Below, in pieces: positions 1,880-33,997 of a stretch of 33,997 bases of DNA (positions are counted from its first letter, which is position 1; every line of letters begins with the position of its first letter). Source of the stretch: an uncultured Coriobacteriaceae bacterium (GTDB taxonomy: Bacteria; Actinomycetota; Coriobacteriia; Coriobacteriales; Atopobiaceae). The position numbers and the translations under genes are program-made. Under the pieces are notes generated by a model. The model made no database searches and was not told the origin of the DNA. It saw only the letters and a program-made list of their open reading frames with translations. The DNA lies in contig CADBJR010000029.1 in the NCBI GenBank assembly GCA_902795065.1, positions 1-33,997 of the forward strand, written 5' to 3'.

Positions 1880-2000
1880 GCTCGTGCCGATGGCGTTTAA
1901 ATCGGTTGAATATGGCTGAGGAGGCCAAAAACATCATCGGAGCGTCCCTCGTCGAGTACGACACGGCTCGGGAACATGTTTGATTCGCTGCCGATTGCCC

Positions 2001-2028
2001 TTCACAACTCCTTCACAATCGATATAAA
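2001..2028 (+). promoter_or_regulatory. Candidate promoter for the first APC permease
   Basis: TTCACA (2001-2006) and TATAAA (2023-2028) are separated by 16 bases. They lie in an AT-richer stretch of the 263-base gap between the divergent antiporter and permease genes and would leave a leader of about 105 bases. TTCACAA also occurs twice in tandem here (2001 and 2012), which could be a binding site. This is a pattern match only. Confidence 0.4.
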
Positions 2029-2142
2029 CTCGAATGAACTCATGGGGTTACAGAGGTTGTGCCATACTACCCTGCGAATACATCCGCCTGCGTTGACGGG
2101 CAAGGGCGGGAAGAACGTGTTCGATCGAGAAAGGAAAGAAAA

Positions 2143-3579
2143 GTGGAAAAGAAGGGCCTTTCGTTCTTCACGATCATCTCCACGGTGATCTGCGTCGTCT
2201 TCGTGTGCGAAGCCGCCGCGCCTGCTGCTGCCATCGGCAACCAGCAGTTCTTCTGGTGGATCTTCCTGATCATCACCTTCCTGATCCCCTACGGCCTGGC
2301 AGTCGCAGAGCTCGGCACCGCCTATGAGTCCGACGGAGGCATCATCGACTGGATCCGCGACGGCCTCGGCGACAAGTGGGCCGCACGCGCCGCGTACTAC
2401 TACTGGGTCAACTACCCGTTCTGGATCGCCTCGCTGGCCACGCTGTTCCCCTACATCATGACGATGATCTCGGGCTACACGATCGACTTCGAGGCCAACA
2501 TCTGGGTCACCCTCGCCATCGAGCTGGCCTTCACCTGGATCGTCACCTTCATGGCCTTCTCGCCCGTCTCCGACTCCGAGTGGGTCCTCAACGGCGGCGC
2601 CATCATCAAGGTTGCCGTGGCCGTCATCGTCGGCTGCGTCGGCATCTGGTTCGCCGCTACCAACGGCTTCGCCTCCGACATGAGCCCCGCCACCTTCCTG
2701 CCCGACCTCTCCGGCGGCAACGCTCTCGGCTACCTCTCGATCATCATCTTCAACTTTATGGGCTTCGAGGTCATCTGCACCATGACCGGCGACATGAAGG
2801 ACCCCAAGCATGAGATCCCGCGCGCCGTCATCCTCGGCGGTATCGCCATTGCCGTGATCTACCTGTTCGCCTCCTTCGGCATCGGCGCCGCCATCCCCGC
2901 CGACCAGATCGACCCCGACTTCGGCATGGTCGTCGCCCTCGAGACCATGGTCGGCAACGGCTTCCTCTTCAAGCTCGTCGCCGTCCTGTTCCTCATCACC
3001 ATGTTCGCCAACATGGCCTCTTGGTCCTTCGGCGTCAACTCCGTCGCCGCCTACGCCGCCCAGACCGGCAACATGCCCAAGGTCTTCGGCAAGATGAACC
3101 CCAAGACCGGCATGCCCGATGGCGCCGCCATCACCAACGGCGTGGTGACCTCGCTCATCCTCTGCATCCAGCTCATCCCCAACGAGTTCATCTCCAACAA
3201 CATCTTCTGGATGCTCTTCGGCCTGTCCGTCGTCTTCCTGCTGCTCACCTTCCCTGCGTTCATGAAGCTCCGCAAGGTCGACCCCGATCGTCCGCGCATC
3301 TACGAGTTCCCCTTCAAGGGCGCCATGTTCAAGATCGCCCTCATCGTTCCGATGATCGAGCTCGTCGCGGCCGTCATCGCCACCGTCATCCCGCTGTCCG
3401 CCGAGGAGGTCGGCGACAAGGTCCCGATGATCATCGGCCTCATCGTCTTCCTCGTCATCGGCGAGATCTTCCGCATCGTCTCCGCCAAGGGCCGCACCGA
3501 GGAGTACAAGGGCCTCACGCCCGAGCTCGCCGCCCAGCGCAACGCCGAGGAGGCTGCAGCCGCTGCCGCCGAGGAGTAA
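2143..3579 (+). CDS. APC-family amino acid/polyamine permease, copy 1
   Basis: The 478-residue polytopic protein has about 12 membrane helices and belongs to the amino acid-polyamine-organocation superfamily (e.g. FFWWIFLIITFLIPYGLAVA, then IIFNFMGFEVICTMTGDM). The reading frame is open upstream to 2059, but GTG at 2143 is preferred. It follows AGGAAAG at 2132-2138, its product starts MEKKGLSFFTIISTVICVVF, and this gives exactly the same length and alignment as the next gene. The tandem paralogue and the following agmatine deiminase suggest an agmatine, putrescine or arginine exchanger, but substrate is inferred from context. The C-terminus is alanine/glutamate-rich. A strong hairpin follows the stop. 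Confidence 0.88.
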   Translation: MEKKGLSFFTIISTVICVVFVCEAAAPAAAIGNQQFFWWIFLIITFLIPYGLAVAELGTAYESDGGIIDWIRDGLGDKWAARAAYYYWVNYPFWIASLATLFPYIMTMISGYTIDFEANIWVTLAIELAFTWIVTFMAFSPVSDSEWVLNGGAIIKVAVAVIVGCVGIWFAATNGFASDMSPATFLPDLSGGNALGYLSIIIFNFMGFEVICTMTGDMKDPKHEIPRAVILGGIAIAVIYLFASFGIGAAIPADQIDPDFGMVVALETMVGNGFLFKLVAVLFLITMFANMASWSFGVNSVAAYAAQTGNMPKVFGKMNPKTGMPDGAAITNGVVTSLILCIQLIPNEFISNNIFWMLFGLSVVFLLLTFPAFMKLRKVDPDRPRIYEFPFKGAMFKIALIVPMIELVAAVIATVIPLSAEEVGDKVPMIIGLIVFLVIGEIFRIVSAKGRTEEYKGLTPELAAQRNAEEAAAAAAEE

Positions 3580-3601
3580 ACCCGGTTTCAACTGATTTAC
3601 A

Positions 3602-3631
3602 GACGCCCCCAACCGCTCGGTTGGGGGCGTC
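3602..3631 (+). terminator. Strong hairpin terminator after APC permease 1
   Basis: A perfect 13-bp stem (3602-3614 with 3619-3631) has a GCTC loop and is followed by CTGCTTTA, a weak T-tract. It probably separates the two permease genes into different transcripts or lowers read-through. Confidence 0.75.
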
Positions 3632-3705
3632 CTGCTTTACTATGGACACGGTAGAACGATGCCCCAGCATCCTGTCCGCCCCAGGACCGGTGAGAGGAGT
3701 CCGCG

Positions 3706-5142
3706 ATGTCCGAGAAGAAGTTCTCCTTGAAGGACGTCGTCCTGTCCGTCATCTGCGTCACGTTCACCATCGAGGCCGTGGCCCCCGCGGCAGCTATGGG
3801 CAACGTGCAGTTCTTCTGGTGGATCTTCCTCATCATCACGTTCCTGCTTCCCTACGGCCTCGTCGTCGCCGAGCTCGGCACTACCTACGATTCCGACGGC
3901 GGCCTCTACGACTGGGTCCGCGAGGGCTTGGGCGACGCGTGGGCGGCGCGCATCTCGTGGTACTACTGGGTGAACTTCCCGCTGTGGATGGCGAGCCTCG
4001 CCTGCATGTTCCCGTCCATCATCAACGCGCTCTGGGGTGTCGAGTTCTCGCTGCCCGTCGCCATCATCATCGAGCTCGCCTTCGTGTGGGGCGTCACGAT
4101 CCTGGCCTTCTCGCCCATCTCCGAGGCCGAGTGGATCATGAACGGCGGCGCCGCCATCAAGATGTTCATCACGGCCGTCGTCGCCATCGCGGGCATCTGG
4201 TTCGCCGCCACGCACGGGTTCGCCAACGACATGAGCATCTCGACGTTTTTGCCCAACCTCTCGAGCCTCGACTCGCTCACGTACCTCTCGATCATCCTGT
4301 TCAACTTCATGGGCTTCGAGGTCATCGCGACCTTCACGAGCTCCATGGACAACCCCGCGCGCGACATCCCCAAGGCCCTCGTGGTCGGCGGCATCACCAT
4401 CGTCGCAATCTACCTGCTCTGCGGCATCGGCCTCGGCGCCGCGGTCCCCGTCGAGGAGCTCTCGCTCGACTCCGGCATGGTCGACGCCGTCGCCGCCATG
4501 CTCGGCGGCACGCACCCGCTCACGATGATCGTGGGCGTGGTCTTCCTGATCACGCTGTTCGCGAACATGACCAGCTGGTCGTTCGGCATCAACGTGGTCG
4601 CGAGCTATGCGGCCAAGCAGAAGAACATGCCGCGGCCCTTCGCCTACACCAACGAGAAGACCGAGATGCCCAACGGATCGGCCATCATGACCGGCGTCGT
4701 CGCATCGCTCGTCCTGCTGCTCCAGATCCCGCTCGGCGAGGACTCGCCGGTGTTCTGGATCTTCTTCTCGATGAACGTCGTGTTCCTGCTCATGAGCTAC
4801 ACCCCGATGTTCCCGGCCATGCTGCAGCTGCGCAAGCACGATGCGGACCGCCCGCGCGTGTTCCGCGCGCCGTTCGAGGGCAAGCTCCTCACGGTCATGC
4901 TCGCCATCCCCGCCATCGAGCTCGTGCTCTCCATCATCGCGACCATCGTCCCGCTCAACGGCAGCGAGGCCGAGATGGAGAAGCTGCCCATGCTCATCGG
5001 CGTGGTCGCGCTCACCGCCGTGGGCGAGGTCATGCGCATCATCTCGAAGCGCGGCCGTGAGCAGGATTATCCCGGCATCGGCCGCGGCGTGCCCAGCATG
5101 TTCGACGCACCTGCCGAGGATGTCGCCGAACTCGAGGAGTAG
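3706..5142 (+). CDS. APC-family amino acid/polyamine permease, copy 2
   Basis: The 478-residue membrane protein aligns without obvious large gaps to the preceding permease. Shared blocks include QFFWWIFLIITFL, YGL.VAELGT.Y.SDGG, WYYWVN.P.W.ASLA.MFP, FNFMGFEV and a DADRPRVF/DPDRPRIY block before the last helices. The start ATG is preceded by AGAGGAG. Lying 117 bases upstream of agmatine deiminase, it is the better candidate for the agmatine (or agmatine/putrescine) carrier of that pathway. The two copies have clearly diverged, so they may have different substrates. The C-terminal tail is acidic. Family assignment is confident and substrate is inferred. Confidence 0.88.
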   Translation: MSEKKFSLKDVVLSVICVTFTIEAVAPAAAMGNVQFFWWIFLIITFLLPYGLVVAELGTTYDSDGGLYDWVREGLGDAWAARISWYYWVNFPLWMASLACMFPSIINALWGVEFSLPVAIIIELAFVWGVTILAFSPISEAEWIMNGGAAIKMFITAVVAIAGIWFAATHGFANDMSISTFLPNLSSLDSLTYLSIILFNFMGFEVIATFTSSMDNPARDIPKALVVGGITIVAIYLLCGIGLGAAVPVEELSLDSGMVDAVAAMLGGTHPLTMIVGVVFLITLFANMTSWSFGINVVASYAAKQKNMPRPFAYTNEKTEMPNGSAIMTGVVASLVLLLQIPLGEDSPVFWIFFSMNVVFLLMSYTPMFPAMLQLRKHDADRPRVFRAPFEGKLLTVMLAIPAIELVLSIIATIVPLNGSEAEMEKLPMLIGVVALTAVGEVMRIISKRGREQDYPGIGRGVPSMFDAPAEDVAELEE

Positions 5143-24021: not shown

Positions 24022-26028
24022 ATGGTTTCAAACGATGCATCCCTACAGCTTTCGCCGGACGATTTGTTCCTGTTCGCAAAAGGCGACTGGTTCAGGAGCT
24101 ACGAGAAGCTCGGCGCCCACCCCGCGGAGAAGGACGGCGTCGCCGGCTACCATTTCGCCGTATGGGCACCCGACGTGCGCAGCGTCCATGTCATCGGCGT
24201 CTTCAACGGCTGGGACGAGCAGGCCAACCCGCTCACCTGCAGCGCGACCGGCGGCGTGTGGGAGGGCTTCATCCCGAACGTCTCGGAGGGCGACCGCTAC
24301 AAGCTCCTCATCGAGACCGCGCAGGGCGAGAAGCTCTACAAGGCCGATCCCTACGGCTACTGGGCGGAGATGGTGCCCGGCAACGCCTCCCGCATCTTCG
24401 ACATCTCGGGCTACGAGTGGGGCGACGGCGAGTGGATGGCCGCACGCAAGCGCACGAACCACCGCGAGCGCCCGCTCAACATCTTCGAGGTGCATCTGGG
24501 CAGCTGGAAGCGCCATGACGACGGCCTCGTGGGCAACGGCTCCTGGCCCGAGAGGCCCGAGGACGGCACCGGCTCCTACCTCACCTACGACGAGCTCTCC
24601 CACGAGCTCGTGGCCTACGTCAAGCGCATGGGCTACTCTCATATCGAGCTCATGCCCGTGATGGAGCATCCGTTCGACGGCTCCTGGGGCTATCAGATCG
24701 TCGGCTACTTCGCGCCCACCGCGCGCTTCGGCGACCCCAAGCAGTTCAAGCATTTCGTCGACGCGTGCCACCAGTCCGGCATCGGCGTCATCCTCGACTG
24801 GGTTCCCGGCGGGTTCTGCCCCGACGCGCACGGCCTCGCGCGCTTCAACGGCAACAAGCTCTACGAGAACTTCGTCCACCCCACGTGGGGCACGCTCAAG
24901 TTCGACATGGGCCGCGGCGAGGTCCGCAGCTTCCTCATCTCGAACCTGCTCTACTGGGTCGAGGAGTACCACGCCGACGGCGTCCGCATGGACGGCGTGA
25001 CCTCCATGCTCTACCTCAACTTCGGCATCGACGAGCCCAGCCAGAAGCGCTTCAACAGCCGCGGGACCGAGGAGGACGACGAGTCCGTGGCGTTCGTCCG
25101 CAAGTGCAACGCCACCATCGGCACCTACCACCCCGACGTCATGATGATCGCGGAGGAGTCCACCGCCTGGCCGCTCGTCACCTATCCGCCCGAGGTCGGC
25201 GGCCTGGGCTTCAACTACAAGTGGGACATGGGCTGGATGAACGACACCCTGCACTACATGCAGGCCGACTTCCCGTTCCGTCCCGGCGCCCACGGCCTGC
25301 TCACGTTCTCGATCATGTACGCGTTCAACGAGAACTTCGTGCTGCCGCTCTCCCATGATGAGGTCGTGCACGGCAAGTGCTCGCTCATCACCCGCCAGCC
25401 GGGCGACAACTGGCGCCAGTTCGCGGGCCTGCGCGCGCTCGCGTTCTACCAGATGACGCACCCCGGCGGCAAGCTCAACTTCATGGGCAACGAGATCGGC
25501 CAGTTCATCGAGTGGCGCTACTACGAGGGCATCGAGTACTTCCTCGCCGACCGCTTCGAGACGCACGGCAAGCATCGCCGCTACATCGCCGCGCTCAACC
25601 GCTTCTACAACGAGAACCCCGCGTTCTGGGAGCTGGCCTACAGCACCGAGGGCTACGAGTGGATCGACGCCGACAACAACACGCAGTCCGTCCTCACCTA
25701 CATCCGCCATGGCAAGCACAAGAAGGATGACCTGGTGATCCTGCTCAACATGGACATCAACGCCCACGAGAACTTCCGCATGGGCGTGCCCAAGAGCGGC
25801 ATCTACGAGGAGATCTTCAATTCCGACGACCCGGCCTTCGGCGGCTCGGGCGTGGCAAACGTGGGACGCATCGAGAGCGAGGACGTTCCGTGGAACGGGC
25901 GCGAGGATTCCATCGTCGTGCGCGTCCCGCCGCTCGCCGGCCTCGTCTTCAAGCGCACGGCCGCGCTCCCCAAGAAACCCGCCGCCAAGAAGAGCACCGC
26001 CAAGGCCACGGCAAAGACCAAGAAGTAA
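24022..26028 (+). CDS. glgB: 1,4-alpha-glucan branching enzyme
   Basis: The 668-residue GH13/CBM48 enzyme introduces alpha-1,6 branches in glycogen. An N-terminal CBM48 domain (FAVWAPDVRSVHVIGVFNGW, 45-64) precedes the barrel, with HPFDGSWGYQIVGYFAPTARFG. Catalytic Asp324 is in GVRMDGVTSMLY, the acid/base Glu in IAEEST (378-379), and His445-Asp446 in LSHDEVVHGK. Region I reads DWVPGGFCPD (259-268) where the family has a histidine (DWVPxHF), so that conserved residue is Gly264. The last 18 residues form a Lys/Ala tail (KKPAAKKSTAKATAKTKK), unusual for GlgB. The start follows AAGGAG. First gene of the glycogen operon. Confidence 0.95.
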   Translation: MVSNDASLQLSPDDLFLFAKGDWFRSYEKLGAHPAEKDGVAGYHFAVWAPDVRSVHVIGVFNGWDEQANPLTCSATGGVWEGFIPNVSEGDRYKLLIETAQGEKLYKADPYGYWAEMVPGNASRIFDISGYEWGDGEWMAARKRTNHRERPLNIFEVHLGSWKRHDDGLVGNGSWPERPEDGTGSYLTYDELSHELVAYVKRMGYSHIELMPVMEHPFDGSWGYQIVGYFAPTARFGDPKQFKHFVDACHQSGIGVILDWVPGGFCPDAHGLARFNGNKLYENFVHPTWGTLKFDMGRGEVRSFLISNLLYWVEEYHADGVRMDGVTSMLYLNFGIDEPSQKRFNSRGTEEDDESVAFVRKCNATIGTYHPDVMMIAEESTAWPLVTYPPEVGGLGFNYKWDMGWMNDTLHYMQADFPFRPGAHGLLTFSIMYAFNENFVLPLSHDEVVHGKCSLITRQPGDNWRQFAGLRALAFYQMTHPGGKLNFMGNEIGQFIEWRYYEGIEYFLADRFETHGKHRRYIAALNRFYNENPAFWELAYSTEGYEWIDADNNTQSVLTYIRHGKHKKDDLVILLNMDINAHENFRMGVPKSGIYEEIFNSDDPAFGGSGVANVGRIESEDVPWNGREDSIVVRVPPLAGLVFKRTAALPKKPAAKKSTAKATAKTKK

Positions 26029-26085
26029 ACCAAGCACGCACAACGACGTACGGTCGGGCGCATGCCCGAACCGGAGAGGAGTTAC

Positions 26086-28575
26086 ATGGCAACGACCGAT
26101 TCTTTCCAGGGCTATATGTTCCAGGGCTTCAGCGGCCTGATGCGCAAGCTCAAGGGCGAGAAGTCCTTCGAGTCCGACAAGGACTTCATCCACACCTACC
26201 GCGCCGTCTGCGAGGCAACGCTCGGCAAGTCCTTCGATGAGGCCACGCCGCAGGAGCGTTACACCGCCCTCGCCCGCATGGTCGCCTTCAAGGCACGCGA
26301 CCTGCAGGTCGAGTCCAACACCCCCAAGGAGAAGCGCGTCTACTACTTCTCGCTCGAGTTCCTGCTCGGGCCCCTGCTCGACAACTACCTGATCAACCTG
26401 GGCGTCCGCGACGTGGTCGCAGACGGCCTCAAGCAGATGGGCACCACGCTCGAGGACCTGTGCGCCCAGGAGGCCGACCCCGGCCTCGGCAACGGCGGCC
26501 TCGGCCGTCTCGCCGCATGCTTCCTCGATTCCATGGCCACCGAGGGCTTCTCGGGCAACGGCAACGGCATGCGCTACCGCTACGGCCTCTTCCGCCAGGA
26601 GATCGAGGGCGGCCGCCAGGTCGAGAAGACCGACAACTGGCTCGCCCACGGCTTCCCGTGGGAGCGCCGCGCCATCGAGAGCTCGGTCGTCGTGCAGTTC
26701 GGCGGCAACGTCGTGCGCCACGAGGACGCCAACGGCAAGTACTGGTTCACCCAGGAGGGCGGCAGCAAGGTCCTCGCCGTGCCCTACGACGTCCCCATCG
26801 TCGGCTACGGCGGCAAGAGGGTCAACAAGCTGCGCCTCTGGAGTGCCGAGCCCTACTCCGTCGACTTCGACCTCGACGCCTTCAACGCGGGCGACTACGC
26901 CAAGGCCAACAAGTTCTGCACCGATGTCGAGGCCATCGCCACGATCCTCTATCCCAACGACTCGGGCGACCACGGCAAGATCCTGCGCCTCAAGCAGGAG
27001 TACCTGTTCGTCTCCGCGGGCCTGCAGACCATCCTGCGCACCTACGAGAAGGAGTTCGGCGAGAACCAGTGGGAGCACCTCGGCGAGCGCGTCTGCATCC
27101 ACACCAACGACACGCACCCCGCCATGTGCGGCCCCGAGCTCATGCGCCTGCTCGTCGATGAGAAGGGCGTCGATTTCGACCTCGCCTTCAAGATCGCCTG
27201 CGCGACCATCTCCTACACCAACCACACGGTCATGCCCGAGGCGCTCGAGAAGTGGCCCATCAACACCTTCCGCGAGCTCTTCCCGCGCACCTACATGTTC
27301 ATCGACGAGATCGACCGCCGCTTCCGCGACTCCTTCCCGCATGACCGCGACGATTGGTACGACCACCTCAAGCACACCGCCATCCTCTGGGACGGCCAGG
27401 TGCGCATGGCCAACCTCTCGGTCATCTTCTCGCACTCCGTGAACGGCGTGTCCGCCCTCCACACGGGCATCCTCGAGTCGTCGACCCTCAAGTCGTTCTA
27501 CGAGCTCACGCCCGAGAAGTTCAACAACAAGACCAACGGCGTGACGCACCGCCGCTTCCTCGCCGAGGCCAACCCCTCCTACGCCAAGCTCATCACCAAC
27601 GCCATCGGCGACAGGTGGATGGTCGACGCCATGGAGCTCGAGAAGCTCGTCCGCTTCGAGGACGACCCGAGCTTCCAGCGCGGCTTCGCCATGTCCAAGC
27701 AGACCGACAAGGAGCGCCTCGCGGCCTACATCAAGAAGGCCACCGGCGTGTCGCTCGACACCTCGACCATCTTCGACGTGCAGGTCAAGCGCTTCCACGC
27801 CTACAAGCGCCAGCTGCTGAACGTCTTCAAGATCCTCGACATCTACAACCGCATGCTGGCAGATCCCACCTTCTGCCCGCATCCCACCTCCTTCATCTTC
27901 GCGGGCAAGGCGGCGCAGAGCTACACCTTCGCCAAGGAGGTCATCCGCCTCATCAACTCGGTGGCCGACGTCATCAACAACGACACGCGCGTGAACAACC
28001 ACATCAAGGTGGCCTTCGTGCCCAACTTCGCGGTCTCCAACGCGGAGCTCATCTATCCGGCCACCGACATCTCCGAGCAGATCTCGTGGGCGGGCTCCGA
28101 GGCGTCCGGCACCTCCAACATGAAGCTCATGCTCAACGGCGCCATCACGCTCGGCACCTACGACGGCGCAAACGTCGAGATCTGCGGTCTCGTGGGCGAG
28201 GACAACATCAAGATCTTCGGCATGCGCACGCCCGAGGTCGATGAGCTGCGCCGCAACCACAGCTACTGGGCATGGGACGCCTACAACGCAGACCGCGCCC
28301 GCCTGGGCCGCATCGTCGACATGCTGACCGACGGCACTCTCGGCCGCCTCTCGGGCAACTTCGACAGCATCCGCGACGAGCTCATGGTCAACAACGACCA
28401 CGACCTCGTGCTCAAGGACTTCTACTCCTACGTGACGGCGTGGGAGGAGCTCACCGCCAGCTACAGCGACAAGGCGGCATGGCGCAAGATGGCCATCCAC
28501 AATACCGCCAAGGCTGGATACTTCTCATCTGACCGAACCATTCGCGAGTATGCGGATGATATTTGGCATATTTAG
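26086..28575 (+). CDS. glgP: Glycogen/starch phosphorylase
   Basis: The 829-residue GT35 enzyme releases glucose-1-phosphate from glycogen ends. It has the N-terminal VYYFSLEFLLGPLL, GLGNGGLGRLAACFLDS, DTHPAMCGPELMRLL and the PLP site EASGTSNMKLMLNG with Lys680, then GTYDGANVEI. Length is normal. ATG 26086 follows AGAGGAG; the frame is open eight codons earlier. It is in the synthesis operon, so synthesis and breakdown are expressed together. Confidence 0.96.
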   Translation: MATTDSFQGYMFQGFSGLMRKLKGEKSFESDKDFIHTYRAVCEATLGKSFDEATPQERYTALARMVAFKARDLQVESNTPKEKRVYYFSLEFLLGPLLDNYLINLGVRDVVADGLKQMGTTLEDLCAQEADPGLGNGGLGRLAACFLDSMATEGFSGNGNGMRYRYGLFRQEIEGGRQVEKTDNWLAHGFPWERRAIESSVVVQFGGNVVRHEDANGKYWFTQEGGSKVLAVPYDVPIVGYGGKRVNKLRLWSAEPYSVDFDLDAFNAGDYAKANKFCTDVEAIATILYPNDSGDHGKILRLKQEYLFVSAGLQTILRTYEKEFGENQWEHLGERVCIHTNDTHPAMCGPELMRLLVDEKGVDFDLAFKIACATISYTNHTVMPEALEKWPINTFRELFPRTYMFIDEIDRRFRDSFPHDRDDWYDHLKHTAILWDGQVRMANLSVIFSHSVNGVSALHTGILESSTLKSFYELTPEKFNNKTNGVTHRRFLAEANPSYAKLITNAIGDRWMVDAMELEKLVRFEDDPSFQRGFAMSKQTDKERLAAYIKKATGVSLDTSTIFDVQVKRFHAYKRQLLNVFKILDIYNRMLADPTFCPHPTSFIFAGKAAQSYTFAKEVIRLINSVADVINNDTRVNNHIKVAFVPNFAVSNAELIYPATDISEQISWAGSEASGTSNMKLMLNGAITLGTYDGANVEICGLVGEDNIKIFGMRTPEVDELRRNHSYWAWDAYNADRARLGRIVDMLTDGTLGRLSGNFDSIRDELMVNNDHDLVLKDFYSYVTAWEELTASYSDKAAWRKMAIHNTAKAGYFSSDRTIREYADDIWHI

Positions 28576-28614
28576 AGTGGGGTAAGGAATACAGGTTCAT
28601 CGAAAGGAGTCCGT

Positions 28615-29754
28615 ATGAGCAAGAAGGAGTGCGTCGCAATGCTCCTTGCCGGTGGGCAGGGCAGCAGGTTGGGCGTTCTCACCAGTGATGTCGCGAAACC
28701 GGCGGTTTCGTTCGGCGGAAAGTTCCGCATCATCGACTTCCCGCTGTCCAACTGCGCGAATTCCGGCATCGATACGGTGGGTGTTCTGACGCAGTACCGC
28801 CCCTACCTGCTGCATTCCTATATCGGGACCGGCGAGGCGTGGAACCTCGACGAGCGCGGCGGCGGTGTTTCCATCCTGCCTCCGTTCGCGACCCAGACGG
28901 GCGGCTCCTGGTATGCCGGCACGGCGGACGCCGTCACCCAGAACCTGGGTTACCTCAAGCAGAACGATCCCGAGTACGTGCTCATCCTCTCGGGCGACCA
29001 GCTCTACCGCATGGACTACCATGACATGCTCCAGTGCCATAAGGACAACAACGCCGACCTCACCGTCGCCGTCATGCCCGTGCCCTGGGAGGAGGCCTCC
29101 CGCTTCGGCATCATGAACTGCGACGACGAGGGCCGCATCCTCGAGTTCGTCGAGAAGCCCAAGGAGCCCAAGAGCAACCTCGCCTCGATGGGCATCTACA
29201 TCTTCACCGCCGATCTCCTCATCAAGACGCTCGAGGAGGACGCGGTCGATCCCAACTCCAGCCACGACTTCGGCGGCGACATCATCCCGAAGCTCCTCGC
29301 CGATGGCAAGCGCCTCTTCACTTACAAGTTCGAAGGCTTCTGGCGCGACGTCGGCACCATCTCGAGCTACCTCGAGACGAGCATGGACCTGCTGGGGTCC
29401 GAGCCCGCGTTCGACATCTTCACCAACGAGTTCCCGATCATGAGCAACTCGTCCACGCGCCCGCCCGCATTCTACGGCCCGAACGCCGAGGTCGAGGACT
29501 GTCTCGTCGACAACGGCGCCCAGATCTTCGGCAAGGTCACCCGCTCGATCCTCGCGCATGACGTCTTCGTCGGCGAGGGCGCTGTGGTCGAGCAGGCCGT
29601 CCTGCTCCCCGGCGCGCGCATCGAGGCCGGCGCCAAGGTCGTGAACGCGATCCTCGGCGACAAGGTCGTGGTCGAAGCCGGTGCCACCCTCGGCTCACTT
29701 GACGCAGATACCGCCACCGTCGGAAACGGCGATGTGGTCAGGAAGGGGGAGTAG
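28615..29754 (+). CDS. glgC: Glucose-1-phosphate adenylyltransferase, catalytic subunit
   Basis: The 379-residue enzyme makes ADP-glucose from ATP and glucose-1-phosphate. It has [64 protein letters not shown] (metal Asp; the more usual GDH is GDQ), [19 protein letters not shown], and a C-terminal left-handed beta-helix of hexapeptide-like repeats. The start follows AAAGGAG. It pairs with glgD three bases downstream, as in Gram-positive GlgCD enzymes. Confidence 0.96.
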
Positions 29755-29757
29755 ACG

Positions 29758-30852
29758 ATGGCTAAGGTTATCGGCATCATCACCTGCAACTACACGTCCA
29801 AGGAGAAGGACTTCACCTCAGCCGATCGTCCCATCGCCGCAGTGCCCTATGTCGGCCGCTACCGCGTGATCGACTTCCCGATGTCCAACATGGTCAACGC
29901 CGGCATCCGCACCATCGGCGTGATCATGCCCAAGAACTTCCGCTCCCTCACCGACCATCTCGGCGCCGGCAAGGAGTGGAGCCTCGCCCGCAAGAACGGC
30001 GGCCTGTTCATCCTGCCCGGCACCGCCTTCGGCACCGCCCGCGTGGGTTCCCGCTTCCTGATCCGCGACCTCATCCAGAACCGCGCCATGCTCGAGCGCA
30101 GCTCTGACGGCTACGTGGTGTTCTCCTCGGCCAACATCGTCTTCAACGCCGATCTCAACGAGCTCGTCGACGCCCATATCGCGAGCGGCGCGGACATCAC
30201 CGCGTACACGAAGATCGCCAACGAGGACGACGCCGACGTCGTGGCGTTCGACGCCGAGGACGGCGTGGTCAAGGGCATGAAGTACGGCGTCAAGGAGGGC
30301 GAGCTCGCGTTCCTCGACACCTTCGTGGTCAAGCGCTCGCTGCTGCTCGACATGCTCGACTGGTACGCCGCGAACGACCATCTGGACCTCATCGAGGCGG
30401 CCCTCACGCACGGCGCCCCGCTGACCATCAACACCTTCATGTACGACGGCTACTGTGCCGCCATCTTCAACAAGATGAGCTATTTCCGCGCCAACATGGA
30501 CATGCTCGACCCCGAGCTCTACGCCGCGCTGTTCCCGAGTGGACGCCATGTCAAGACCAAGACGCATGACACCCCGCCCGCCAAGAACGAGACCGGCTCG
30601 AAGGTCACCAAGTCGCTCGTCTCCGCCGGCTGCCGCATCTACGGCATTGTCGACGGCAGCGTGCTCTCCCGCAACGTCATCGTCGAGCCCGGCGCGGTCG
30701 TGACCGACTCCATCCTCATGCAGGGCACCGTCATCAAGAGCGGCGCGGTGGTCGACCATGCGATCATCGACCGCAACAACGTCATCCCCGCGGGTACCGT
30801 GCTCAAGGGTACCGCCGAGGATGTCCTGGCCAAGGGCAAGGCACGCGACTAA
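29758..30852 (+). CDS. glgD: Glucose-1-phosphate adenylyltransferase, GlgD subunit
   Basis: The 364-residue GlgC paralogue has the GlgD N-terminus (MAKVIGIITCNYTSKEKDFTSADRP replaces the AGGxGxRL nucleotide loop) and YRVIDFPMSNMVNAGI. VFSSANIVFNADL stands where the catalytic GDxxYxMD would be, so it is probably non-catalytic and stimulates GlgC. A C-terminal beta-helix is present. The spacing to glgC is three bases, with an AGGGGGAG ribosome-binding site. Confidence 0.95.
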   Translation: MAKVIGIITCNYTSKEKDFTSADRPIAAVPYVGRYRVIDFPMSNMVNAGIRTIGVIMPKNFRSLTDHLGAGKEWSLARKNGGLFILPGTAFGTARVGSRFLIRDLIQNRAMLERSSDGYVVFSSANIVFNADLNELVDAHIASGADITAYTKIANEDDADVVAFDAEDGVVKGMKYGVKEGELAFLDTFVVKRSLLLDMLDWYAANDHLDLIEAALTHGAPLTINTFMYDGYCAAIFNKMSYFRANMDMLDPELYAALFPSGRHVKTKTHDTPPAKNETGSKVTKSLVSAGCRIYGIVDGSVLSRNVIVEPGAVVTDSILMQGTVIKSGAVVDHAIIDRNNVIPAGTVLKGTAEDVLAKGKARD

Positions 30853-30865
30853 CAGAGGGGACACC

Positions 30866-32347
30866 ATGGCAACGAGAAGAAAGCTCAAGATCCTGCTCGC
30901 GACCTCCGAGGCCGTGCCCTTCGCCAAGACCGGCGGCCTGGGCGACGTCGCGGGCTCGCTGCCCCAGGCGCTCAACGCCGAGGGCGCCAAGTGCGCGGTC
31001 ATCATGCCCAAGTACAGCACCATCCCCTGGGAGTACCAGGAGAAGATGGAGCATCTGGGCGAGATGTACGTGCCCCTGGCATGGCGCAGCGTGTACTGCG
31101 GCGTCGAGCATCTCGAGTACGACGGCGTCGACTTCTACTTCCTCGACAACGAGGCCTACTTCAAGCGCGATACCATCTACGGCCACTTCGACGATGGCGA
31201 GCGCTTCGCGTTCTTCTCCAAGGCCATCTGCGAGGCCATCGAGTTCTTCCCGGAGCTTCAATGCGACGTCTGCATGTGCAACGACTGGCAGACCGCCCTC
31301 GTGCCCGTGTTCCTGCGCGAGTTCTACCGCGAGAGCGATGCCTGCAACAACGTGAAGTGCGTGTTCACGGTGCATAACGTCAAGTTCCAGGGCCAGTTCG
31401 GCGACCAGCTGCTCGACGACATCCTCGGCGTGGGCCACATCCCCGCCGCCGCCGACCAGCTGCGCTGCGACGAGCGCTCGATCAACTTCATGAAGGGCGC
31501 GCTCTGCTACTCCGACCTGCTCACCACCGTGAGCCCGACCTACGCGGTCGAGCTGCAGATGCCGTTCTTCGGCGAGGGCCTCGACTACATGTTCCGCCGT
31601 CGCTCGTCCATCCTGTCGGGCATCCTCAACGGCATCGACCAGAACATCTGGAACCCCGAGACCGACAAGTTCATCGAGCATCACTTCAGCGTCGAGGACA
31701 TGTCGGGCAAGAAGGAGGCCAAGCGCGCCCTCCAGGAGGAGTGCGGGCTCTGGCAGGATGAGAACGCGCCGCTCGTGGTCATGATCGGCCGCCTCACCAA
31801 CCAGAAGGGCCTCGGCCTCGTGCGCTACGCCATGGACCGCATCATGTCCGACGGCGTGCAGATGATCGTGCTCGGCACCGGCGATGCCGACCAGGAGGAG
31901 GCGTTCCGCTACTTCCAGGATCGCTATCCCGGCCAGATGTGCGCGCGCATCACGTTCGACAACGCGCTCAGCCACCGCATGTACGCGGGCGGCGACATCC
32001 TGCTCATGCCGTCCGAGTTCGAGCCGTGCGGCCTGTCGCAGATGATCGCCATGCGCTACGGCACCCTGCCCGTGGTGCGCGAGACGGGCGGCCTCAAGGA
32101 CTCCGTCGAGCCGTACAACCAGTTCACCGGCGAGGGCACGGGCTTCTCGTTCGCCAACATGAACGCCGACGAGATGGCCGACTGCCTGCTCACCGCCTGC
32201 TGGATCTACCGCGACAACAAGGATGCATGGCGTGAGCTGCAGAAGCACGGCATGACCACGGACTTCTCGTGGGACCGCGCCGCGGTGGACTATCTCAACC
32301 TGTTCCATTCGCTCCATCCCGAGGTCATCCCCTGGAATAAGAGGTAA
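30866..32347 (+). CDS. glgA: Glycogen synthase (ADP-glucose type)
   Basis: The 493-residue GT5 enzyme extends alpha-1,4 glucan from ADP-glucose. It has the N-terminal SEAVPFAKTGGLGDVAGSLP with Lys21, FTVHNVKFQG, SPTYAVELQ, IGRLTNQKGLGLVRYAMD, and the C-terminal FEPCGLSQMIAMRYGTLPVV segment with the catalytic Glu. ATG 30866 follows AGAGGGG; the frame is open back into glgD. It is 13 bases after glgD and 4 bases before the GH13 gene. Confidence 0.96.
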   Translation: MATRRKLKILLATSEAVPFAKTGGLGDVAGSLPQALNAEGAKCAVIMPKYSTIPWEYQEKMEHLGEMYVPLAWRSVYCGVEHLEYDGVDFYFLDNEAYFKRDTIYGHFDDGERFAFFSKAICEAIEFFPELQCDVCMCNDWQTALVPVFLREFYRESDACNNVKCVFTVHNVKFQGQFGDQLLDDILGVGHIPAAADQLRCDERSINFMKGALCYSDLLTTVSPTYAVELQMPFFGEGLDYMFRRRSSILSGILNGIDQNIWNPETDKFIEHHFSVEDMSGKKEAKRALQEECGLWQDENAPLVVMIGRLTNQKGLGLVRYAMDRIMSDGVQMIVLGTGDADQEEAFRYFQDRYPGQMCARITFDNALSHRMYAGGDILLMPSEFEPCGLSQMIAMRYGTLPVVRETGGLKDSVEPYNQFTGEGTGFSFANMNADEMADCLLTACWIYRDNKDAWRELQKHGMTTDFSWDRAAVDYLNLFHSLHPEVIPWNKR

Positions 32348-32351
32348 TTCT

Positions 32352-33997
32352 TTGCTCGCACGTCATATAACGTCGCTCAGCGACTACAGAATACCCTTCG
32401 GTGCCGCCCAATTGGGCGGCACCGTCAAGCTGTCCATCGATGTGTGGGAGGACGAGCCCCAGGCTGTCGATCTGCGTCTGTGGATCGACGGCGAGGGCGA
32501 GCGTCTCATCCCGATGCAGCCCGGCAGCGGGAACGGCTCCGCCGTCAGGTACGCCGCGGAGTTCGCGCCCGAGAAGACCGGCGTCATCTGGTACAGCTTC
32601 AACATCACCTCGTCCGACGGCAGCGTGTGGCGCTACGGTGCCCGCGAGGAGCACGCGGTGGGGGAGGGCGCGTTCCACTACGGCGATCCGCCCTCGTTCC
32701 AGATCACGGTGTACGAGCCGCGCGCGGTGCAGCCCGACTGGTACCGCAACGGCATCGTCTACCAGATCTTCCCCGACCGCTTCGCCCGCGGCGACGATTG
32801 GCGCGAGCGTGCCAAGACGCTCGACGCCCCGCGCAAGGGACCCAAGCGCCGCCTCGTCGAGGACTGGGACAAGCCCGTCTCCTACGAGTTCGACGAGAAG
32901 GCCGGCGAGATGCTCGCCTGGGACTTCTACGGCGGCACGCTCGAGGGCATCCGCGAGAAGCTCGGCTACCTCGAGGCGCTCGGCATCACCGCGCTCTACC
33001 TCAACCCGATCTTCGAGGCGGCGAGCAACCACCGCTACGACACGGCCGACTACGAGCGCATCGATCCGCTGCTCGGCGACGAGGAGTCGTTCCGCGCGCT
33101 CTGCGCCGATGCGGAGGCGCACGGCATCTCCGTCATCCTCGACGGCGTCTTCAACCACACCGGCCGCGACTCGCGCTACTTCAACGCGCTCGGGAACTAC
33201 CCCGACGTGGGCGCGGCGCAGGATCCGTCCTCCCCGTACCACACGTGGTACAAGATGGAGGAGGACGGCAGCTACAGCTGCTGGTGGGGCGTCAAGGACC
33301 TGCCCGACATCGAGGAGACCGACCCCGGATACCGGGACTACATCAACGGCGAGGACGGCATCGTCCGCAGGTGGCTGCGCGCCGGCGCGCGCGGTTGGCG
33401 CCTCGACGTGGCCGATGAGCTGCCCGATTCCTTCATCCGCGAGCTCAAGGCAGCTGCGACCGCCGAGAAGGACGATGCCCTCGTCATCGGCGAGGTGTGG
33501 GAGGATGCGACCCACAAGTGGGCGTACGGCGAGCTCCGCCAGTACTTCCAGGGCGAGGAGCTCGACGGCGTGATGAACTAATCCTGCGCTACCTCACCGG
33601 CAAGGCGACCGCCTCCGAGCTGTTCGACGTGCTCGAGCAGCTCATCGAGAACTACCCGCCCGACGCGCTCGCGAACTGCCTGAACGTGCTCGGCACGCAC
33701 GACCGCATGCGCCTCTTCACCGTCTTGGGCGGCGCACCCGAGCAGGACGAGCTGAGCGACGAGAAGCGCCGCGCCTACAAGCTCGACGACGGCCAGAAGG
33801 CCCTCGCGCGCTCGCGTCTCTGGCTCGCCGCTCTGCTGCAGATGACGCTGCCCGGCGTGCCCTGCGTCTACTACGGCGATGAGGCGGGTCTCGAGGGCTT
33901 CCGCGACCCCTACAACCGCGGCACCTTCCCCTGGGAGGGCGGCGATCCCTACTGCCCCACGATCTACCGCAACGCCATCGGGGTGCGCAAGGTGCTT
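32352..33997 (+). pseudogene. Interrupted GH13 alpha-glucosidase/neopullulanase-like gene (runs off the window)
   Basis: Frame one (32352-33581) encodes 409 residues: an N-terminal beta domain, then a GH13 barrel with NGIVYQIFPDRFARGD, LGITALYLNPIFEAASNHRYD, DGVFNHTGRDSRYF (region I, 264-), GWRLDVADELP (Asp352 nucleophile) and VIGEVWED (Glu381). It stops at TAA 33579-33581 after ELDGVMN. The next base frame from 33581 resumes the same protein (ILRYLTGKATASELF ... NVLGTHDRMRLFT with region IV His-Asp, then PGVPCVYYGDEAGLEG). Family members have about five more residues between MNY and ILRY, so a deletion of about 16 bases is likely (inference). A sequencing error cannot be excluded. TTG start with AGAGGT upstream. 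Without region IV the first piece should be inactive. Last visible gene of the glycogen operon. Confidence 0.85.
33581..33997 (+). pseudogene. Downstream out-of-frame piece of the GH13 gene
   Basis: About 139 residues are open to the right edge and carry region IV (LGTHDR, His at 33698-33700 and Asp at 33701-33703), plus VYYGDEAGL and NRGTFPWEGGD, typical of the end of a GH13 barrel. No ribosome-binding site or good start codon is seen; the first in-frame GTG is at 33629. It belongs with the 32352 frame. Confidence 0.8.

Follow-up and report, generated by a model that had tools for sequence, protein, structure and literature searches.

Sixteen missing bases interrupt a GH13-GH77 fusion gene in a draft Coriobacteriales genome: recent gene breakage or assembly error

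The glycogen operon and its interrupted last gene

The window analysed here, 33997 bp long, is not a slice of a larger sequence and represents the entire contig C29 of a draft Coriobacteriales genome (G000; 2.24 Mb in 53 contigs). In the list of open reading frames (ORFs), the last 10 kb of the window hold a glycogen operon and then a GH13 gene, which is single-copy and sits at the 3′ end of the operon. The five ORFs upstream of it, which from their sequences and family knowledge we take to be glgB, glgP, glgC, glgD and glgA, contained no frame break when compared with relatives (Table 1).

The GH13 gene itself is interrupted. Its first frame closes with ...ELDGVMN at TAA 33579-33581, and ILRYLTGKATASELF... 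resumes at 33581 in the -1 frame, which remains open up to the end of the window; ORFs and translation thus bear out the positions at which a first-pass annotation had placed the end of one frame and the restart in another. The beginning of the 5′ fragment near 32352 is a predicted start, a TTG chosen by the ORF caller. Pfam describes one alpha-amylase domain spread over both fragments, with PF00128 above its cut-off of 22 in each (136.7 bits in the 5′ fragment and 27.2 bits in the 3′ fragment), and the four conserved regions of GH13 are all found, split over the two frames. The earlier statement that the other catalytic motifs are intact is therefore correct for regions I, II, III and IV; as in GH13 enzymes generally, region II presumably carries the nucleophile Asp and region III the acid/base Glu.

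Table 1. Features of the window discussed in the text
Feature	Position	Strand	Evidence
Conserved amino-acid permease gene with 12-base deletion	~2059-3579		
Upstream glycogen-operon ORFs, intact (span 24022..32347)	24022-26028, 26062-28575, 28615-29754, 29758-30852, ~30860-32347	+	ORF list
GH13-GH77 fusion gene, 5′ fragment, with the N-terminal region and the GH13 barrel as far as region III	32352..33581	+	PF00128, 137 bits
GH13 region I, DGVFNH	33141..33158	+	motif found
GH13 region II, GWRLDVADE	33393..33419	+	motif found
GH13 region III, VIGEVW	33483..33500	+	motif found
Premature in-frame TAA made by the junction; 16 bases of relatives missing here	33579..33581	+	alignment
3′ fragment, -1 frame: remaining GH13 barrel with region IV; contig end cuts before GH77	33581..33997	+	PF00128, 27 bits
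GH13 region IV, NVLGTHD, past the break	33683..33703	+	motif found

The size of the defect can be stated precisely. Where a loss of roughly 16 bases had been proposed, blastn against three genus relatives (G001, G002 and G003) gives exactly 16 consecutive absent bases in an otherwise colinear and gap-free alignment, and the gap falls at the predicted point. These alignments extend over 405-432 bases with 80-82% DNA identity on either side of the junction and 16 gapped positions only, and the motif MNYPLR(A/S)GIL runs unbroken through the break point in the genus relatives. Related loci were also compared from other species, 80 in all. The site is covered in 78 (the contigs of the other two stop at it or short of it), and 78/78 are uninterrupted, with no stop or frame change; none has the two-gene arrangement that had been raised as an alternative to breakage. 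Since the relatives are all uninterrupted, this is a deletion in the window sequence rather than an insertion elsewhere, and the open frame is disrupted relative to its intact orthologues, as in a pseudogene. Inspection of the junction revealed neither direct nor inverted repeats on its flanks, and it is free of microhomology and homopolymers.

The intact fusion protein and the genes that remain

In relatives, the intact orthologue is one protein of 1075 residues that joins a GH13 hydrolase of maltodextrin/neopullulanase type (PF00128) to a GH77 4-alpha-glucanotransferase (PF02446), with both domains within one alignment in 72 of the 80 related loci and with GH77 scores of 321-391 bits in the genus orthologues. 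The first-pass assignment was thus right about GH13, but the gene is not GH13 alone. It shares with the GH13-GH77 fusion of Coriobacteriia the position after glgA in genus relatives and the domain order, at 75-78% protein identity to the genus orthologues; unlike that fusion, it lacks the 16 bases, and its contig stops before GH77. Indeed, the contig end lies only 416 bases past the break, such that the gene also runs off C29 before its GH77 part is reached, which makes that part invisible in the window. When the whole genome was searched with the full protein, nothing matched the missing C-terminal half; this search returned the two window fragments and paralogues only, and the idea that the rest of the gene lies on another contig was rejected. 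The sequence at the contig end has no second copy in the genome, so the contig does not end in a repeat. What lies directly downstream of this gene in G001 and G002 is found on contig C28 in G000. Downstream gene order differs: the surface-polymer cluster that follows the fusion gene in these two relatives lies inside C28 (G000:C28:20001-30166), with other genes in front of it.

The nearest NCBIfam model is NF011083 (PRK14510.1-2), bifunctional glycogen debranching protein GlgX/4-alpha-glucanotransferase, whose cut-off of 1322 bits is above the scores of the genus orthologues (871-928, with intact ones reaching 924-928) and of the window fragments (410 and 125), and we therefore do not file the gene as an NF011083 equivalog. 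For the GH13 half, the nearest solved structures are those of MalZ maltodextrin glucosidase, maltogenic amylase and neopullulanase (PDB 5bn7, 1sma and 1j0h), which differ in having no GH77 domain, whereas the window gene is a broken one. For the C-terminal half of the orthologues they are those of MalQ amylomaltase/4-alpha-glucanotransferase (GH77; PDB 1cwy and 2x1i), and it is this MalQ-like half that is absent from the G000 assembly at the glycogen-operon locus.

Because it stops between GH13 regions III and IV and is without GH77, the truncated product should be inactive. A separate GH77 gene, malQ, is present at G000:C13:37500-38972 (642 bits to a 4-alpha-glucanotransferase model), and the genome search located several further GH13 genes, so the functions of the fusion protein may be partly covered. 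A loss of glycogen or maltodextrin hydrolysis, as originally suggested, is thus possible as a real loss but is an incomplete description, given that the orthologues add GH77 and that GH77 and GH13 paralogues remain.

Selection on the fragments and frame breaks elsewhere

Compared with the genus relatives, the 5′ fragment has dN of 0.15-0.17 and dS of 0.35-0.50, and the 3′ fragment has dN of 0.15-0.16 and dS of 0.44-0.69; dN/dS in the 3′ fragment is not above that in the 5′ fragment, so the relaxed selection looked for in a pseudogene is not seen. Purifying selection on both fragments indicates that the break is either very recent or artefactual. The 3′ fragment being conserved like the 5′ fragment, the earlier view that the break is recent stands, and unrelaxed selection is compatible with a very recent event.

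Assembly quality was assessed on sampled stretches, 384 kb of G000 against 1.5 Mb of the isolate genome G001 as control, and candidate frame breaks were kept only if dN was below dS on both pieces. Most candidates were dropped as frames running on into neighbouring genes or into a tRNA gene. In the G000 sample, 2 of 217 conserved ORFs then remained frame-broken with selection on both pieces, as against 0 of 220 in the reverse comparison. With 2 cases against 0 after filtering, a genome-wide excess of frameshifts was rejected. TGA-rich homologues of an ORF downstream in G002 were likewise discarded as an artefact of ORF choice, because Pfam finds nothing in that frame and C28 has its long coding ORFs there in a different one. 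A search of a plasmid collection returned nothing useful.

In the second break, at G000:C28:27178, a nucleotidyltransferase-aminotransferase fusion gene has lost 14 bases close to its start; the gene keeps these bases and is intact in 4/4 genus relatives. A third small deletion, of 12 bases and in frame, affects the permease gene at window position 3249/3250 and corresponds to residues YIPM, kept in G001 and G002. (This permease is one of two tandem related genes at 2059-5142, with about 69% DNA identity between 1951-3700 and 3748-5045.) Both frame breaks and the 12-base deletion are confined to the small contigs C28 and C29, which contribute 26 conserved ORFs, and the largest contig, C1, has no frame break among the 176 conserved ORFs checked. 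Such clustering, spotted after the fact and in three events, suggests local assembly trouble.

Real loss or assembly error

The observation is accurate and its explanation is ordinary: either the gene broke recently or the assembly is in error. Like the ordinary frameshift pseudogenes of draft assemblies, the locus combines a conserved gene, one small frame-breaking deletion and homology on both sides. We give about an even chance to a real and recent loss in the sequenced population. One simple 16-base deletion would have hit the glycogen-operon GH13-GH77 gene and removed five codons plus one base, shifting the frame into an immediate stop at the TAA; the product, lacking the whole of GH77 and a portion of the GH13 barrel that includes region IV, should be inactive, and the effect of the loss would be cushioned by the GH77 gene and the other GH13 genes that remain. 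The clean gap, the high flanking identity to three genus relatives, the 78 intact loci, a dN/dS in the 3′ fragment no higher than in the 5′ fragment and the GH77 and GH13 paralogues argue for such a loss, and the rate of frame breaks in the sample, which is low and unremarkable for pseudogenes, favours a real event. Alternatively, and with a probability somewhat short of even, the organism carries the intact 1075-residue fusion and the contig here follows an incorrect path, of low coverage or from a minor strain. That the contig stops 416 bases on, and that the assembly lacks the rest of the gene, is a sign of weak assembly at this place. The one further small deletion seen to break a frame is on C28, which holds the region that lies downstream in relatives, the permease of the window has lost 12 bases in addition, none of the 176 conserved ORFs checked on C1 is broken, and purifying selection is intact in both fragments. 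Assembly error is also a documented cause: according to Cooley and Wright, many of the frameshift pseudogenes in public genomes are errors of assembly linked to low coverage (PMC11017572). The clustering on C28 and C29, together with the nearby contig end, makes an error nearly as likely as a real loss. Against an error stand the low frame-break rate across the sample and the nature of the break, which is neither in a homopolymer nor of one base. In de Bruijn assembly, a mis-join without overlap needs reads that carry the junction, and since this junction has no microhomology, the assembler would have needed such reads. The initial choice between real loss and assembly error thus holds up, and sequence alone cannot decide it; we lean slightly toward a real, recent loss.

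Other readings have little probability. It is improbable that the break is a standing strain polymorphism, with natural lineages that lack the fused enzyme and depend on MalQ, encoded separately, and on other GH13 enzymes. Still less probable is a pair of functional proteins, or a joining of the fragments by recoding (a -1 frameshift or a restart): the required shift would be -1, and in-frame GTG codons lie upstream (33497 and 33518) and downstream (33629 and 33686) of the junction, but GTG ATG AAC TAA before and at the stop contains no slippery heptamer, five conserved residues are gone too, the division cuts through the catalytic barrel between regions III and IV, and no relative has two genes divided at this point. 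A strain-variable or phase-variable on/off switch of the enzyme, entertained in the first-pass annotation, we consider very improbable. Nothing but the break itself speaks for it, even if a mixed population would give the same consensus; the variable site has no repeat tract, short tandem repeat, flanking direct repeats or invertible arms, the lack of repeats, microhomology and homopolymer leaves a switch unsupported, and the broken form occurs in none of the 78 relatives. Skipping of a hairpin was also considered, as the 16-base segment in relatives forms a small GC hairpin (-2.5 to -4.1 kcal/mol), and it was set aside because 3-12% of 16-mers from the same gene fold as well or better and because the 14-base deletion elsewhere has almost no hairpin.

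If the real, recent loss is true, this would be one further case of a Coriobacteriales lineage recently losing a redundant glycogen enzyme. The locus stands mainly as a caution against equating a single frameshift close to a contig end, in a metagenome or draft assembly, with loss of a pathway.

Elsewhere in G000, an island of low G+C (0.45-0.55 against ~0.65 in its surroundings) at G000:C1:75700-79500 contains a gene for a second glycogen phosphorylase and one for a 4-alpha-glucanotransferase, broken by frame changes and stops. This second GH77 gene has no counterpart in the genus relatives searched, and the island looks like an acquired, decaying gene pair.
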